In this document: positions 11,421 through 59,908 of the stretch, one piece after another
How positions within the stretch are numbered: position 1 is the stretch's first letter
Layout of the letters: each line of letters starts with the position of its first letter
DNA from: Jeotgalibacillus malaysiensis
Lineage (GTDB): Bacteria > Bacillota > Bacilli > Bacillales > Jeotgalibacillaceae
Reading direction: 5' to 3'
Assembly (NCBI GenBank): GCA_000818095.1
Contig: CP009416.1
Coordinates: 3,270,501 to 3,334,500, forward strand
DNA: 64,000 nucleotides
Made by a program: the position numbers and the translations under genes
Notes under the pieces: generated by a model
Told to the model about the DNA's origin: nothing
Databases searched by the model: none
The model's input: only the letters and a program-made list of their open reading frames with translations

Positions 11421-11514
11421 AGAACCCGGCAGCCAGACAACCATTTGAAAAACAGGCAGGCTCACGGCTTTGCGTCCTTCCCTTTCGGAGAAGTTTGCCC
11501 TTATCAGATTCATT
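11421..11514 (-). promoter_or_regulatory. Cyclic-di-GMP-I (GEMM-I) riboswitch
   Basis: The reverse strand shows the hallmark order AGGGCAAAC, a short P2 hairpin closed by a GAAA tetraloop (CTCCGAAAGGG), the core GGACGCAAAGCC, a P3 helix (AGCC...GGCT) and the 3' conserved CTGCCGGGTT. These are the diagnostic GEMM-I elements. It lies about 35 nt upstream of the secreted TIM-barrel gene and on the same strand. A diguanylate cyclase is encoded immediately downstream, so ligand source and target are neighbours. Confidence 0.93.
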
Positions 11515-20054: not shown

Positions 20055-20165
20055 TTCGGGTTAAAACCCGTGATGTTCGATGGATAAGTCGCCTGGTTCG
20101 TCACTAAGCATGCACACTTCAACACTTAACCTCACACCTTCAACGCTAATCACCTAACCTTCGAC
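20055..20165 (+). repeat. Intergenic 21-bp-period word array F (TTCrAC-like)
   Basis: Six words start at 20055 TTCGGG, 20076 TTCGAT, 20097 TTCGTC, 20118 TTCAAC, 20139 TTCAAC and 20160 TTCGAC. All five steps are exactly 21 bp. The array lies between ilvE and the Nudix gene and does not overlap a gene. Confidence 0.75.
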
Positions 20166-20187
20166 ACTTCATGACTTTTGACCCGTA

Positions 20188-36943: not shown

Positions 36944-36959
36944 TGTTTCACGTGGAACA
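36944..36959. other. parS centromere site (ParB/Spo0J binding)
   Basis: The reverse complement reads TGTTCCACGTGAAACA, an exact match to the B. subtilis parS consensus TGTTnCACGTGAAACA. The site nucleates ParB spreading and condensin loading for origin segregation. It lies between the methyltransferase stop and the tandem hairpin repeats. Such sites cluster around the origin, so the window is likely origin-proximal. Confidence 0.92.
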
Positions 36960-36961
36960 AT

Positions 36962-37363
36962 GAAAAGCGTAAGGCGCTTGGTCAGCTCTGACGGGCATAA
37001 GCCACGGAGCGGAAAATGGGCGCCCTTCCCATTTACCGATGCGTGGCTTATGACCCGAAGAGTTAGCGCCTGGAGCTAGATCTAATGAAAAGTGGAGGGC
37101 GCTCGTTCAGCTCCGACAGGCATAAGACGCGGAGCGGAAAACGGGTGGTCTTTCCCGTTTACCGATTCGTGGCTTATGTCCCGAGGAGTTAGCGCCTGGA
37201 GCTGGATCTAATGAAAGGCGGAAGCAGGCGTTCAGGTCCGACAAGCATAAGACGGCTTGAGAGAAATGGGTGACCTTTCCCATTTTCTCAAGGTGACTTA
37301 TGACTCGAGGACCTGCCTGCTGGAGCTGGATCTAATGAAAAGTGGAAGGCGCCCTTTCAACTC
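36962..37363 (+). repeat. Three tandem 125-bp hairpin repeats plus a partial fourth
   Basis: Units begin with GAAA at 36962, 37087 and 37213 and end CTGGAGCTrGATCTAAT; a partial copy starts at 37337. Each unit folds into one long hairpin with three stems: outer AGGCGCT/AGCGCCT or AGCAGGC/GCCTGCT, middle CATAAG/CTTATG, inner AAATGGG/CCCATTT or AAACGGG/CCCGTTT. Differences between units are compensated on the opposite arm. Non-coding; resembles dispersed hairpin repeats seen in Bacillaceae genomes. Confidence 0.85.
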
Positions 37364-42306: not shown

Positions 42307-42453
42307 GGTGTTCTACCCGGATTTTCCTCTTTCCCGCCTCCACCTGTTTATATCCTGACCAATAGTTGTTTCCCTCACCCTCTTCATGCCTCTAAGAAAC
42401 AAGAGCTTTTTTCTCAAGGGCATAAAGAGAATGTGACGGATCCGTCTTGGAGT

Positions 42454-42550
42454 TTGTCGCGATTTCCGGCTGAATTGTCTCTGTCTTCGCCCGGATTGTC
42501 GCGATACACCCGGGGATTTGTCGCAATCCATCCCGCATTTGTTGCAATCA
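42454..42550 (+). repeat. Intergenic word array D2 (TTGTCGCGAT)
   Basis: Word starts at 42454 TTGTCGCGAT, 42475 TTGTCTCTGT, 42496 TTGTCGCGAT, 42518 TTGTCGCAAT and 42539 TTGTTGCAAT, steps 21, 21, 22 and 21 bp. It shares the longer word GCGATACACCCGGGGATTTG with array D1. Confidence 0.75.
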
Positions 42551-42586
42551 CCCGCTCTCCACGTCTCATCCGCCCCGCACACCGCC

Positions 42587-44846: not shown

Positions 44847-44875
44847 GGTCGTGCACAGAAAATTAAATACCGTTA

Positions 44876-44968
44876 TCTGCACTAGGGGTGCGAATTAGCT
44901 GAGATGTGAGCATTAGCTCCGATCCCTTATGACTCGATCAGGATAATACCTGCGTGAGGAAGTGTAGT
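44876..44968 (+). promoter_or_regulatory. TPP (THI-box) riboswitch
   Basis: The conserved THI elements appear in order: ACTAGGGGTGC, GCTGAGATG, a variable stem with TTAGCT, then GACTCGATCAGGATAATACC, TGCGTGAGGAAGT. It precedes a terminator hairpin and the thiamine/HMP transporter operon. When TPP is bound the downstream terminator should form. Confidence 0.95.
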
Positions 44969-44985
44969 GACTTCTCTTTTTATAT

Positions 44986-47586: not shown

Positions 47587-48253
47587 ATTCATTGCGATCA
47601 CCGTTTCAATGATCGCAATGGCATTCTTTTTCAATCCATGGACGCCACTTGTGTTCTTTGTCGGTGTTGTATTGATCCAGTTGATTTTCGCAAAAATTTC
47701 ATGGAAGGTGTGGAGCCTGATGATGCTTCCCTTCCTGCTTGGCGCAGTCGGTTATTTCTGGACAACACTTGTATTTGGCAGTGAAGACAGCACGCTTGGC
47801 ACTGCACTGTCCCTAAGCTTCAGGGTGCTTGCATTCTCCAGCCTGTCTCTGCTTTTTGTCTTTACCACAAAACCGGTTGATTTCATCTTAAGCCTGATGC
47901 AGCAGATGAAGCTGTCTCCAAAAATTGCGTACAGCATCCTCGTCGGATATCAGTTCCTGCCTGTATTAAAGGATGAATTTTTTCAGATTCGCCAGGCACA
48001 GCAGCTAAGGGGACTTGAAGTGCCAAAGTCTCCTGTAAAAAGGGTGCTTGCGATGCGGCATGTCCTGATTCCAATGCTCGCGGGTGCCGTGCGAAAAGCG
48101 GAGCGGACAGCTTTTGCAATGGAAGCGCGCGGGTTTACCGGTGAAGGCAAGCGAGATTTTTACCGGAAAATTACAGTCGACCGGGTTGATGTAGCAGGTG
48201 TTGCGTTATTTGTGATCCTGCTTTGCGGGAGTATGGCTGCAGGATTGATTTGA
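47558..48253 (+). CDS. ykoC: ECF transporter T component YkoC
   Basis: 231 aa, five to six transmembrane helices, CbiQ/EcfT type, with the two coupling motifs ALSLSFRVLAFS and MEARGFTGEGKRDF (Ala-Arg-Gly). GGAGGT precedes the ATG at 47558-47560 inside the end of ykoD. It completes the YkoEDC importer. Confidence 0.92.
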   Translation: MINRMNPSVKFIAITVSMIAMAFFFNPWTPLVFFVGVVLIQLIFAKISWKVWSLMMLPFLLGAVGYFWTTLVFGSEDSTLGTALSLSFRVLAFSSLSLLFVFTTKPVDFILSLMQQMKLSPKIAYSILVGYQFLPVLKDEFFQIRQAQQLRGLEVPKSPVKRVLAMRHVLIPMLAGAVRKAERTAFAMEARGFTGEGKRDFYRKITVDRVDVAGVALFVILLCGSMAAGLI

Positions 48254-48254
48254 G

Positions 48255-48283
48255 AAACAGCCGGCCCGCGCCGGCTGTTTTTC
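48255..48283 (+). terminator. ykoFEDC operon terminator
   Basis: Stem AAACAGCCGGC (48255-48265) and GCCGGCTGTTT (48270-48280) with TTTTTC. Confidence 0.9.
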
Positions 48284-48310
48284 GTTCTGGAGGCGTAGGG
48301 CTATATACAC

Positions 48311-48428
48311 TTTTCTACGAACATGGTGTGGTTTTCTGAGAACGGTCCATGTTTTTCTCCGAACACCGTTCACTTTTCTACGAACACTTTCCTCTATTCT
48401 GTGAACAACACCCACTTTTCCACGAACC
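48311..48428 (+). repeat. Intergenic 21-bp-period word array B (TTTTCTnnGAACA), six units
   Basis: Words start at 48311 TTTTCTACGAACA, 48332 TTTTCTGAGAACG, 48353 TTTTCTCCGAACA, 48374 TTTTCTACGAACA, 48395 TATTCTGTGAACA and 48416 TTTTCCACGAACC. All five steps are exactly 21 bp. The 8 bp between words are not conserved. Lies between ykoC and phnD. Confidence 0.92.
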
Positions 48429-48516
48429 ATTACCCCGGCAATTCCTTTACACCTCCCCCAATTAAGCATAAAATTTAACTATTGTTCAAAATCAGAATGA
48501 AAAGAGGAAGATCAAT

Positions 48517-49422
48517 ATGAAAAAAATGATGTTATCAGCTGCTGCACTATCAACTGCTTTAGTGCTTGCTGCATGCGGAAACGCTGAAGAAACCGAGGAC
48601 ACAGACCAACAAAGCTCCGGGGACGATACTTTTACAATCGGCGTTATTCCTGCGCAAACTGAGGGTGAAATGGAAGGCGCGATGAATAAACTTCAGGACG
48701 TGCTGACAGAATCTCTTGGCAGGGAAACTGAAATTGACGTATACCCGGACTATAACGGTGTCGTGGAAGCGATGAACTTTGACCAGATTGATATGGCTTA
48801 CCTTGGGCCATTAACATATGTGATTGCTCAGGAAAGAAGCGATGCAAAAGCGATTATTACCCAGCTTGTAAATGGTGAACCGTTTTACCATTCATATATC
48901 ATTACGCACCAGGACCAGCCTTTTGAATCAATTGAAGATCTCTTAAGTGACCCGTCAGCAATCGATTTTGCGTTTGGTGATCCGAACTCAACTTCAGGCT
49001 CTCTGATCCCTTCGATCGAACTGCAGGACCGCGGTGTGTATGAATCTGAAGACAACTATGAATTCAGTACTGTCAGATTCACAGGCTCACATGATGCAAC
49101 GGCGCTTGCTGTGCAGAATGAACAGGTTGATGCCGGAGCGATTGACAGTGCAATTTATAACCAGCTGATTGAATCCGGGAAAATTGATGATAGTCAGTTA
49201 AAAGTAATCTGGACATCTGAACCGCTGTTCCAATATCCATGGGCTGTTACGGCAGGTACCGATGAAGAAACTATCGCTGCGCTGCAGGAAGCATTTTTAG
49301 CGATTGAAGACCCTGAAATCCTGGATGCGTTCGGTGCATCAGGCTTTACAGAAGCGACACCTGAAGATTATGACAGTATTTTGGACGCAGCTGAAAAGCA
49401 GGGCATTTTAGATGCTGAATAG
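48517..49422 (+). CDS. phnD: Phosphonate/phosphite ABC transporter substrate-binding lipoprotein
   Basis: 301-aa lipoprotein; lipobox LAAC gives Cys20. PhnD-family features are FTIGVIPAQTEGEM, VYPDYNGVVEAMNFDQIDMAYLGPLTYV and DFAFGDPNSTSGSLIPS, the ligand-binding region for phosphonate-like oxyanions. First gene of phnDEC. No phosphonate-degradation genes are nearby, so cargo may be phosphonate, phosphite or another oxyanion. Confidence 0.9.
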   Translation: MKKMMLSAAALSTALVLAACGNAEETEDTDQQSSGDDTFTIGVIPAQTEGEMEGAMNKLQDVLTESLGRETEIDVYPDYNGVVEAMNFDQIDMAYLGPLTYVIAQERSDAKAIITQLVNGEPFYHSYIITHQDQPFESIEDLLSDPSAIDFAFGDPNSTSGSLIPSIELQDRGVYESEDNYEFSTVRFTGSHDATALAVQNEQVDAGAIDSAIYNQLIESGKIDDSQLKVIWTSEPLFQYPWAVTAGTDEETIAALQEAFLAIEDPEILDAFGASGFTEATPEDYDSILDAAEKQGILDAE

Positions 49423-50976: not shown

Positions 50977-51010
50977 GTATGCGATTGGTGATACGAAAGT
51001 CCCGAAGTGG

Positions 51011-51121
51011 CGAAGTTCTGCTGAGATACGGCGAAGTCAGGATCATAAGCGGCGAAGTTCACAGGTTTTCCTCCGAACGTTGACTGGGATACGATGAACT
51101 CTACATATCTTCCGTCGAACC
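51011..51121 (+). repeat. Intergenic 21-bp-period word array E (GGCGAAGT to CGAACn)
   Basis: CGAA words start at 51011, 51032, 51053, 51074, 51095 (TGAACT) and 51116, all steps exactly 21 bp, six units. The fourth unit, TTTTCCTCCGAACG, matches the word of arrays B and C. Lies between phnC and the pirin gene. Confidence 0.82.
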
Positions 51122-51203
51122 ACATCAGAAAAACTTCAGCCTAATGAATGATTGGTTTTTACAGGGGAAATATGGTTCAGTAGTACATGAAGGAGTGATT
51201 CAA

Positions 51204-52630: not shown

Positions 52631-52889
52631 TTTTATCACCCCTTAGCTTTTATACGAAGAGAAGTGGAAAATGTTTCATTTTGGATGGGGATGCAACGGA
52701 TGCTTGAAATCGTAGAAAGGTGTTCGAATAAATGTGAATGGTGATCGAAAAAACAAAAAGCTGATAGATAAATTCCGGTCCAGCACGCTATAAGACGAAT
52801 ACTGCAGATTGATGAGCTAATTCATCCAAAAGGTCATAGATAAATCCGAAGAGGTGATTGATATCTCACCCATCTCCCCCCACCATATA

Positions 52890-59747: not shown

Positions 59748-59773
59748 TTTGTTTCGGGTAGGTCAAATGTCAC

Positions 59774-59891
59774 TTTTCTACGAAGGTGAGGTGATTTTCT
59801 AAGAACATGATCGTTTTTTCTGAGAACACTTATGGTTTTTCTAAGGACATTCAAGCCTATTCTAAGAACCACCACACCTTTTCTACGAACC
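59774..59891 (+). repeat. Intergenic 21-bp-period word array C (TTTTCTnnGAACA), six units
   Basis: Words start at 59774 TTTTCTACGAAGG, 59795 TTTTCTAAGAACA, 59816 TTTTCTGAGAACA, 59837 TTTTCTAAGGACA, 59858 TATTCTAAGAACC and 59879 TTTTCTACGAACC. All steps are exactly 21 bp. Same word and unit number as array B. It lies between two terminators of convergent genes, so no promoter role is expected. Confidence 0.93.
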
Positions 59892-59908
59892 AGCCTCTCA
59901 CCACCAAA

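Follow-up and report, generated by a model that had tools for sequence, protein, structure and literature searches.

Leader-preceded arrays of mostly six 21-bp units on the origin side of the Jeotgalibacillus malaysiensis chromosome

The array of six TTTTCTnnGAAC words at exact 21-bp steps between ykoC and phnD, at 48311-48436 of the window (the whole 64,000-nucleotide stretch analysed here, C1:3270501-3334500), belongs to a genome-wide element of Jeotgalibacillus malaysiensis. The initial annotation had taken the array as local; in fact the element recurs at dozens of places, is preceded by a leader, is mostly fixed at six units and keeps to the origin side of the chromosome, and its words are far better conserved between species than its linkers. 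The best reading, which we hold with about as much belief as doubt, is a phased multi-site binding array for a putative protein, possibly organising the origin-side chromosome.

Architecture of the array and of its genome-wide family

Direct re-reading placed the six words of the ykoC/phnD array at 48311, 48332, 48353, 48374, 48395 and 48416 on the plus strand, with no phase slip, as the initial annotation had reported. In comparison with TTTTCTNNGAACA, three of the six words are exact, TTTTCTGAGAACG and TATTCTGTGAACA carry one mismatch each and the last word, TTTTCCACGAACC, carries two. A single 21-bp unit is made of a 12-bp degenerate word, here TTTTCTnnGAAC of the word type F1, and a 9-bp linker. 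The array is preceded by a leader, TAGGGCTATATACAC (48296-48310, plus strand), whose family form is TAGGTCnnnTTACAC. Upstream, an intrinsic terminator with a G+C hairpin and a T-run (about 48256-48283, plus strand) follows the ykoC-like gene, which stops at 48253, and phnD starts at 48517. The leader, the terminator and further arrays in the window go beyond what the initial annotation had described. A TPP riboswitch scoring above the gathering score lies at 44874-44977 (plus strand), upstream of the gene run that ends in ykoC.

A second F1 array of six units, found by word match and model match, lies between an aldolase-like gene and mqo at 59774-59899 (plus strand), with the leader TAGGTCAAATGTCAC at 59759-59773 (plus strand), and it also sits behind a terminator. 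A degenerate six-unit array at 51003-51125 (plus strand) was recognised by a weak model match and direct read-out. Here GAAC or GAAG stands at 51012, 51033, 51054, 51075, 51096 and 51117, exactly 21 bp apart, and such a six-fold run of this motif, which was picked post hoc, occurred in 0 of 20,000 mononucleotide shuffles. The word-blind scan showed an array of about five 21-bp units with a different, ATTTGTCGCRAT-like word at 42453-42557. Elsewhere in the window we observed a short 21-bp array of the other word CTTCAACRCTTA between ilvE-like and NUDIX-like genes (20102-20168), a loose 21-bp array with words resembling GGTGATCGAAAAA and GATAGATAAA (52690-52870), a c-di-GMP-I riboswitch above the gathering score (11425-11509, minus strand) and a 125-bp tandem repeat of 3.2 copies (36959-37363).

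The genome consists of two contigs, C1 of 3,516,439 bp and the megaplasmid C2 of 603,070 bp. A two-word pattern with up to 3 mismatches gave at least 161 matches in it, and the reversed control gave 0. Twenty arrays were read out fully; all have six units, and a clear leader precedes every one except L017. A sequence-only model built from these 20 arrays and searched against the own genome gave 46 array places, 35 strong (E < 2e-18) and 11 weak, after 17 opposite-strand shadow matches were subtracted from 63 model matches. This number is a lower bound, as the model missed arrays of other words that are visible to the word-blind scan, for example at C1:573012, 3143632, 3150241, 3468108 and 3471729. 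All 11 weak places were inspected and seven proved to be 21-bp arrays of other words. C1:475860 has five units, C1:3477244 and C1:3501458 have six units of other types, and the array at 51003-51125 of the window has its six degenerate ones.

Counted with the F1 chain finder, which covers 35 of the 46 places, the arrays of the own genome have six units in 33 cases and five in two. The array at C1:3002570 breaks this one-word finder, and by eye it shows six units of mixed type. With the same finder, six units were counted in 24 of 29 G006 arrays and 23 of 28 G008 arrays. The eight fetched G007 arrays gave six units in two, five in three, four in one and none found in two, and the five from G011 gave five units in one, four in three, two in one and six in none. 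These low six-counts arise partly because the finder is blind to other word types. Counting as a leader any match to at least four of the six letters of TAGGTC, we found one in front of 34 of the 35 own arrays, 27 of the 29 G006 arrays and 27 of the 28 G008 arrays.

The phase is equally regular. Among 167 steps between neighbouring words of the own genome, 159 measure 21 bp, two measure 20 bp and six, each spanning a single poor word, measure 42 bp. The chain finder is biased towards 21-bp steps, but the word-blind scan agrees on the period, so the 21-bp phase given in the initial annotation holds for the family. These are direct repeats phased near two helix turns, as in arrays of the iteron and parC type. 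Of 139 noncoding origin-side segments, 20 were strongly periodic, 18 with a period of 21, 42 or 63 bp and the others with one of 53 bp, against two matches in 2,780 segments after 20 rounds of dinucleotide shuffling. This comparison with shuffled DNA had been set beforehand as a way in which the array could fail, and the array came through it.

The origin-side stretches were chosen where arrays were already known, and the samples of G271, G173 and G237 lay partly around model matches; the contrasts of the word-blind scan and of the autocorrelation are therefore not blind, while the own-genome model search is. In this non-blind sampling, 400 kb of origin-side DNA gave 22 noncoding peaks, of which 20 fell on 21, 42 or 63 bp and the remaining two on 53 bp, with six further peaks at 21 or 42 bp inside open frames. 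The 300 kb of terminus DNA gave two noncoding peaks (12 and 49 bp), with 21 and 42 bp once each in open frames, and 132 kb of C2 gave noncoding peaks once at 22 and once at 41 bp. The noncoding autocorrelation at lags 21, 42 and 63 reached z values of 5.2, 4.5 and 2.6 on the origin side; under the same choice of stretches, the window gave 5.7, 5.4 and 2.9, and the terminus and C2 samples stayed at 1.4 or below. In L249 and L251, noncoding repeats at a lag of 53 bp carry CTCCGTCCCC or its complement and form a different repeat family.

Conservation among relatives and range of word types

For placement, 29 arrays of G006, 28 of G008, 6 of G007 and 5 of G011 were fetched. For 26 of the 35 own arrays, at least one relative has an array in the same position with matching sequence on either side; three had one or a weak flank only, and six were without counterpart among the fetched arrays. 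Between orthologous arrays, depending on the species pair, words were 85-93% identical and linkers 37-61%, in 51 pairs that are not mutually independent and that come from a word-based model favouring word identity (67 candidates, 16 dropped for unequal unit counts). Words and linkers were respectively 92.9% and 61.2% identical between the own genome and G008, 88.6% and 52.7% between the own genome and G006, 89.7% and 54.9% between G006 and G008, and 85-90% and 37-44% in the comparisons with G007, which hold few units. The word cores were kept best, GAA at 97-100% and TTC at 96-97%. The conserved words and free linkers that had been noticed in one array are thus found between species as well, and the proposal that close relatives might show the words drifting as freely as the linkers, which would have spoken against the array, was put to the test and the words did not.

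Because these pairs came from the word-based model, the phnD and mqo sites were located via the genes instead. With phnD as query in seven genomes (ortholog at least 87%), six units were found in G000, G006 and G008 and four in G011, together with a partial array at a contig edge in G007 and, in G004/G009, six units of a variant word in opposite orientation. With mqo as query, G000, G006 and G008 again showed six units and G011 four, and the G007 array (L161) is partial and lies at a contig end; the remaining seven genomes have a different neighbour beside mqo and no array in the stretch. Both gene-located sites agree with the model-based conservation result.

Other sites changed between species. 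At C1:201020 the own genome carries F1 words, and relatives carry a type that by eye is AATCTCCTGAAC-like, of which G007 and G011 each have six units and G006 has about five; the array is absent from seven other genomes. At C1:511320 only the own genome, of six genomes with the flank, has an array. Several word types share one architecture within one genome; their consensus forms, drawn by eye from the own genome and the genus, include TTTTCTAMGAAC, TAATCTCCTGAAC, TTTWCCGYCGAAC, TTGAACGCCGAAC and ATTTGTMGCRAT. Single arrays that mix TTTTCTnnGAAC and TGAACGnnGAAC among their six units were observed in L064 (G011) and L132 (C1:3002570).

The genus-level model search matched 7 of 12 genomes among the matches listed and left 5 without a match. 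At the order level, 32 of 299 genomes matched at E 1e-4 among the matches listed, 25 of them outside the genus. Among the matches listed outside the genus none starts before model position 6, so that the leader is not matched, and those that were printed are 20-21-bp arrays of other words, such as ATGTTCCCATAAA in G237 and GTTCGGTGATAAATAAA in G271. In nine other genomes, sampled partly around model matches as given above, the noncoding autocorrelation at lags 21, 42 and 63 reached z values of 6.1, 6.3 and 5.2 in G271; at lag 21 it was 3.0 in G005 and 3.2 in G237 (whose top lag is 51), and the other six genomes gave 2.1 or less. Nine stretches from a pattern scan of a named-genome collection, which may omit near relatives, are probably all unrelated, since seven match in open frames and two are conserved-linker repeats.

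Chromosomal position and interpretation of the arrays

With dnaA recognised by sequence at C1:523, none of the 46 array places is more than 1,162 kb away from it, and 42 lie in the origin half. The array-free gap on the terminus side measures 1,297,400 bp, 36.9% of C1; neither this terminus-side third (1.30 Mb) nor the 603-kb megaplasmid C2 gave any array place in the model search. In 20,000 trials, 46 random points never left a gap of that length, and 24 merged clusters left one in 0.065% of trials (P 0.00065). In G006, G008 and G011 the terminus stretch L262 is kept as a single collinear block of 20 kb, 79-82% identical, and L267 shows collinear pieces in the same three genomes over most of its length; their conservation in relatives argues that the absence of arrays there is not simply due to recent foreign DNA. 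The G008 contig that holds both stretches (its C2, 985,906 bp) carries one of the 53 matches listed for that genome, at 964,590. No strong replication-orientation signal was seen, with 28 of 46 places co-directional.

The 46 model-found places have the origin-side, terminus-free layout of Noc (nucleoid-occlusion) sites. Using a Noc consensus, we found 23 Noc-like sites in the own genome, separate from the arrays; 22 of them lie within the arrays' distance of dnaA, and the outer half holds 6 of the 23 against 4 of the 46 arrays, so that they lean to the origin side less tightly than the arrays do. The arrays are not themselves Noc sites, as their words lack the palindromic Noc consensus.

In the preferred reading, the element would be a leader followed by six near-palindromic words with a TTC-Tnn-GAA core, two helix turns apart, on which a sequence-specific protein, probably a dimer, would sit six times along one helix face and bind cooperatively. 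Cooperating dimers lined up in a row would call for just such features: a usual count of six, the phase, conserved words that are nearly palindromic, and linkers that vary more freely. A multi-site protein-binding array had been put forward by the initial annotation and gives the best fit to the conserved phased words, binding itself being something that we infer. The 46 or more arrays may in turn mark or organise an origin-side domain, in anchoring, condensation or a cell-cycle role, for which Noc sites offer the comparison in layout; this resemblance in layout to an established class of cell-cycle sites points to such a chromosome-domain role less strongly than the words point to binding.

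The coexistence of word types and the mixed arrays indicate that one fixed binding protein is not a sufficient explanation. The two sites that differ between species, the six own arrays without a counterpart, the five genus members without a match and the G007 and G011 arrays in which six F1 words are not kept also speak against the preferred reading. More tentatively, and with doubt outweighing belief, the arrays could form a so far undescribed chromosome-addressing code, in which each array would consist of a leader and six phased sites that in most arrays belong to a single discrete word type. A diverging DNA-binding protein family would read the types, which would be replaced wholesale with place, phase and number kept, the origin-side domain being marked and related 20-21-bp codes with other words existing in other families of the order. 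If the origin-side marking were true, it would be a sequence-encoded map of chromosome position in a Bacillus relative, beside parS and Noc sites, and the count and helical phase of the arrays would put this map within easy reach of editing experiments. The orthologous site at which word types differ would be a natural experiment on the way in which a DNA-binding protein might shift along with dozens of its sites.

The main rival, unlikely in our view but by no means negligible, is a non-autonomous mobile or REP-like element whose words are transposase or recombinase sites and which inserts in harmless gaps past terminators. The arrays are indeed intergenic and often lie just behind a transcription terminator. 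At four printed G004/G009 loci the arrays are alike and flanked by GGGACAGACCC repeats, and L153 and L156 of G009 each hold a pair of arrays separated by some 220-230 bp, nearly identical to each other in L153, which appears to be a duplication of the whole element. Paralogous pairs exist, such as L048/L055 with linkers 78% alike, and linkers of the same index are 0.375 alike against 0.308 for different indices, an excess expected of copies from one ancestor. The site C1:511320, occupied in one species and empty in others, and two further sites where the type or the orientation has switched point the same way. This reading is opposed by the 26 of 35 arrays that stay at the same place in a relative, where words remain and linkers drift, and by the empty plasmid and terminus-side third. 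The initial annotation had likewise offered a dedicated copying mechanism; given the repeat-flanked and paralogous copies, it may have had a part in the origin and spread of the element, but copying alone does not explain words that are kept beside linkers that are free. Mobile ancestry is compatible with later use of the words as binding sites, and even as relics of mobile elements the arrays' six-fold phasing and word conservation need explaining.

Transcription insulation, with a protein on the six phased sites past a terminator stopping read-through into the next gene, is improbable. By simple open-frame calls the upstream gene is directed towards the array in 28 of 35 cases, and 18 of 33 arrays have a terminator hairpin within the preceding 110 nt, compared with 11 of 330 random windows from the same loci; a far-side hairpin on the opposite strand accompanies 4 of 33. 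An insulator would nevertheless be expected all round the chromosome, yet the terminus-side third is without arrays, and the ykoC/phnD element is reversed in G004/G009. In one dense cluster at C1:502-515 kb, the genes read by eye are mostly transporters and enzymes; a GntR-like regulator gene together with ABC transporter genes adjoins the C1:505122 array (L243:4608-5256), with no sign that the regulator is linked to the arrays.

That the arrays are decoys titrating a transcription factor with operators elsewhere is very improbable. Like words are densely clustered, 84 of 98 exact words genome-wide lying inside arrays, but the 14 outside compare with 4 in the reversed control, counting exact words only, and the middle letters that are favoured, AC, AA or CC, are missing from all 14. 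With just these 14 outside arrays, isolated operators are unsupported as well.

We give hardly any credence to a gene for a small heptad-repeat protein, in which 21 bp would be seven codons. Of 80 arrays, 55 are open in frame +1 and 48 in frame -1, and of 33 own arrays 26 and 22 are, against 14.2 (sd 2.8) and 10.8 (sd 2.7) when letters are shuffled within linkers; shuffles that keep column composition, however, leave 51.7 (sd 3.7) and 45.0 (sd 3.7) of 80 open, as observed. Under column shuffling the stops number 26 against 34.3 (sd 5.0) in frame +1 and 37 against 45.5 (sd 5.1) in frame -1; they are fewer in frame -2 (161 against 195, sd 8.2; 5 of 80 arrays open) and more numerous in frame +3 (177 against 134, sd 7.5; 13 of 80 open). 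The linkers show flat conservation without a three-base rhythm, and conserved 20-bp steps break the frame in L037, L088 and L118. Such arrays may often be mis-annotated as small proteins.

A structured RNA or hairpin element is not supported, since no stable fold with covarying pairs was seen. No Rfam family reached its gathering score at the array (best E 0.94), plus-strand folding of 17 of the 20 arrays gave z values from -3.8 to 1.5 with only L003 and L008 below -2.5 and the others spread around zero, and of 15 linker pairings in 72 arrays one (4 with 6) reached 1% and no centre stood out. In CRISPR arrays, nearly identical repeats some 23-50 bp long alternate with unique spacers of comparable length, with cas genes close by, a repeat/spacer layout that 12-bp degenerate words with 9-bp linkers do not have. 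The earlier dismissal of CRISPR, microsatellite and coding sequence is upheld, for coding by the stop counts over 80 arrays.

Relation to known repeat and site systems

We found no description of the element in the open-access literature. REP and BIME repeats are many short intergenic copies behind genes, with palindromic or stem-loop units. The arrays are likewise many, short, intergenic and behind genes, but they are made of direct phased words with freer linkers and without a consistent fold. Plasmid iterons and parC-type centromeres are direct repeats of about 20 bp in helix phase, in several copies bound by a dimeric protein, and they occur once or twice per replicon beside the gene of their own protein. 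The arrays resemble them in repeat length, phase and copies per array, and differ in that there are dozens per chromosome, none found on the megaplasmid and no common partner gene identified. The arrays in other families of the order share a period near 20-21 bp; unlike here, the leader is unmatched among the matches listed and their copy number is variable where seen.

Noc sites are single palindromes, without array, phase or leader. In B. subtilis and S. aureus they are described as lying on the origin side and largely absent round the terminus, with tens per chromosome (PMC5540599). The arrays share this origin-side, terminus-poor position and the number of tens per chromosome, and they differ from Noc sites by their six-fold phasing, their leader and their sequence.
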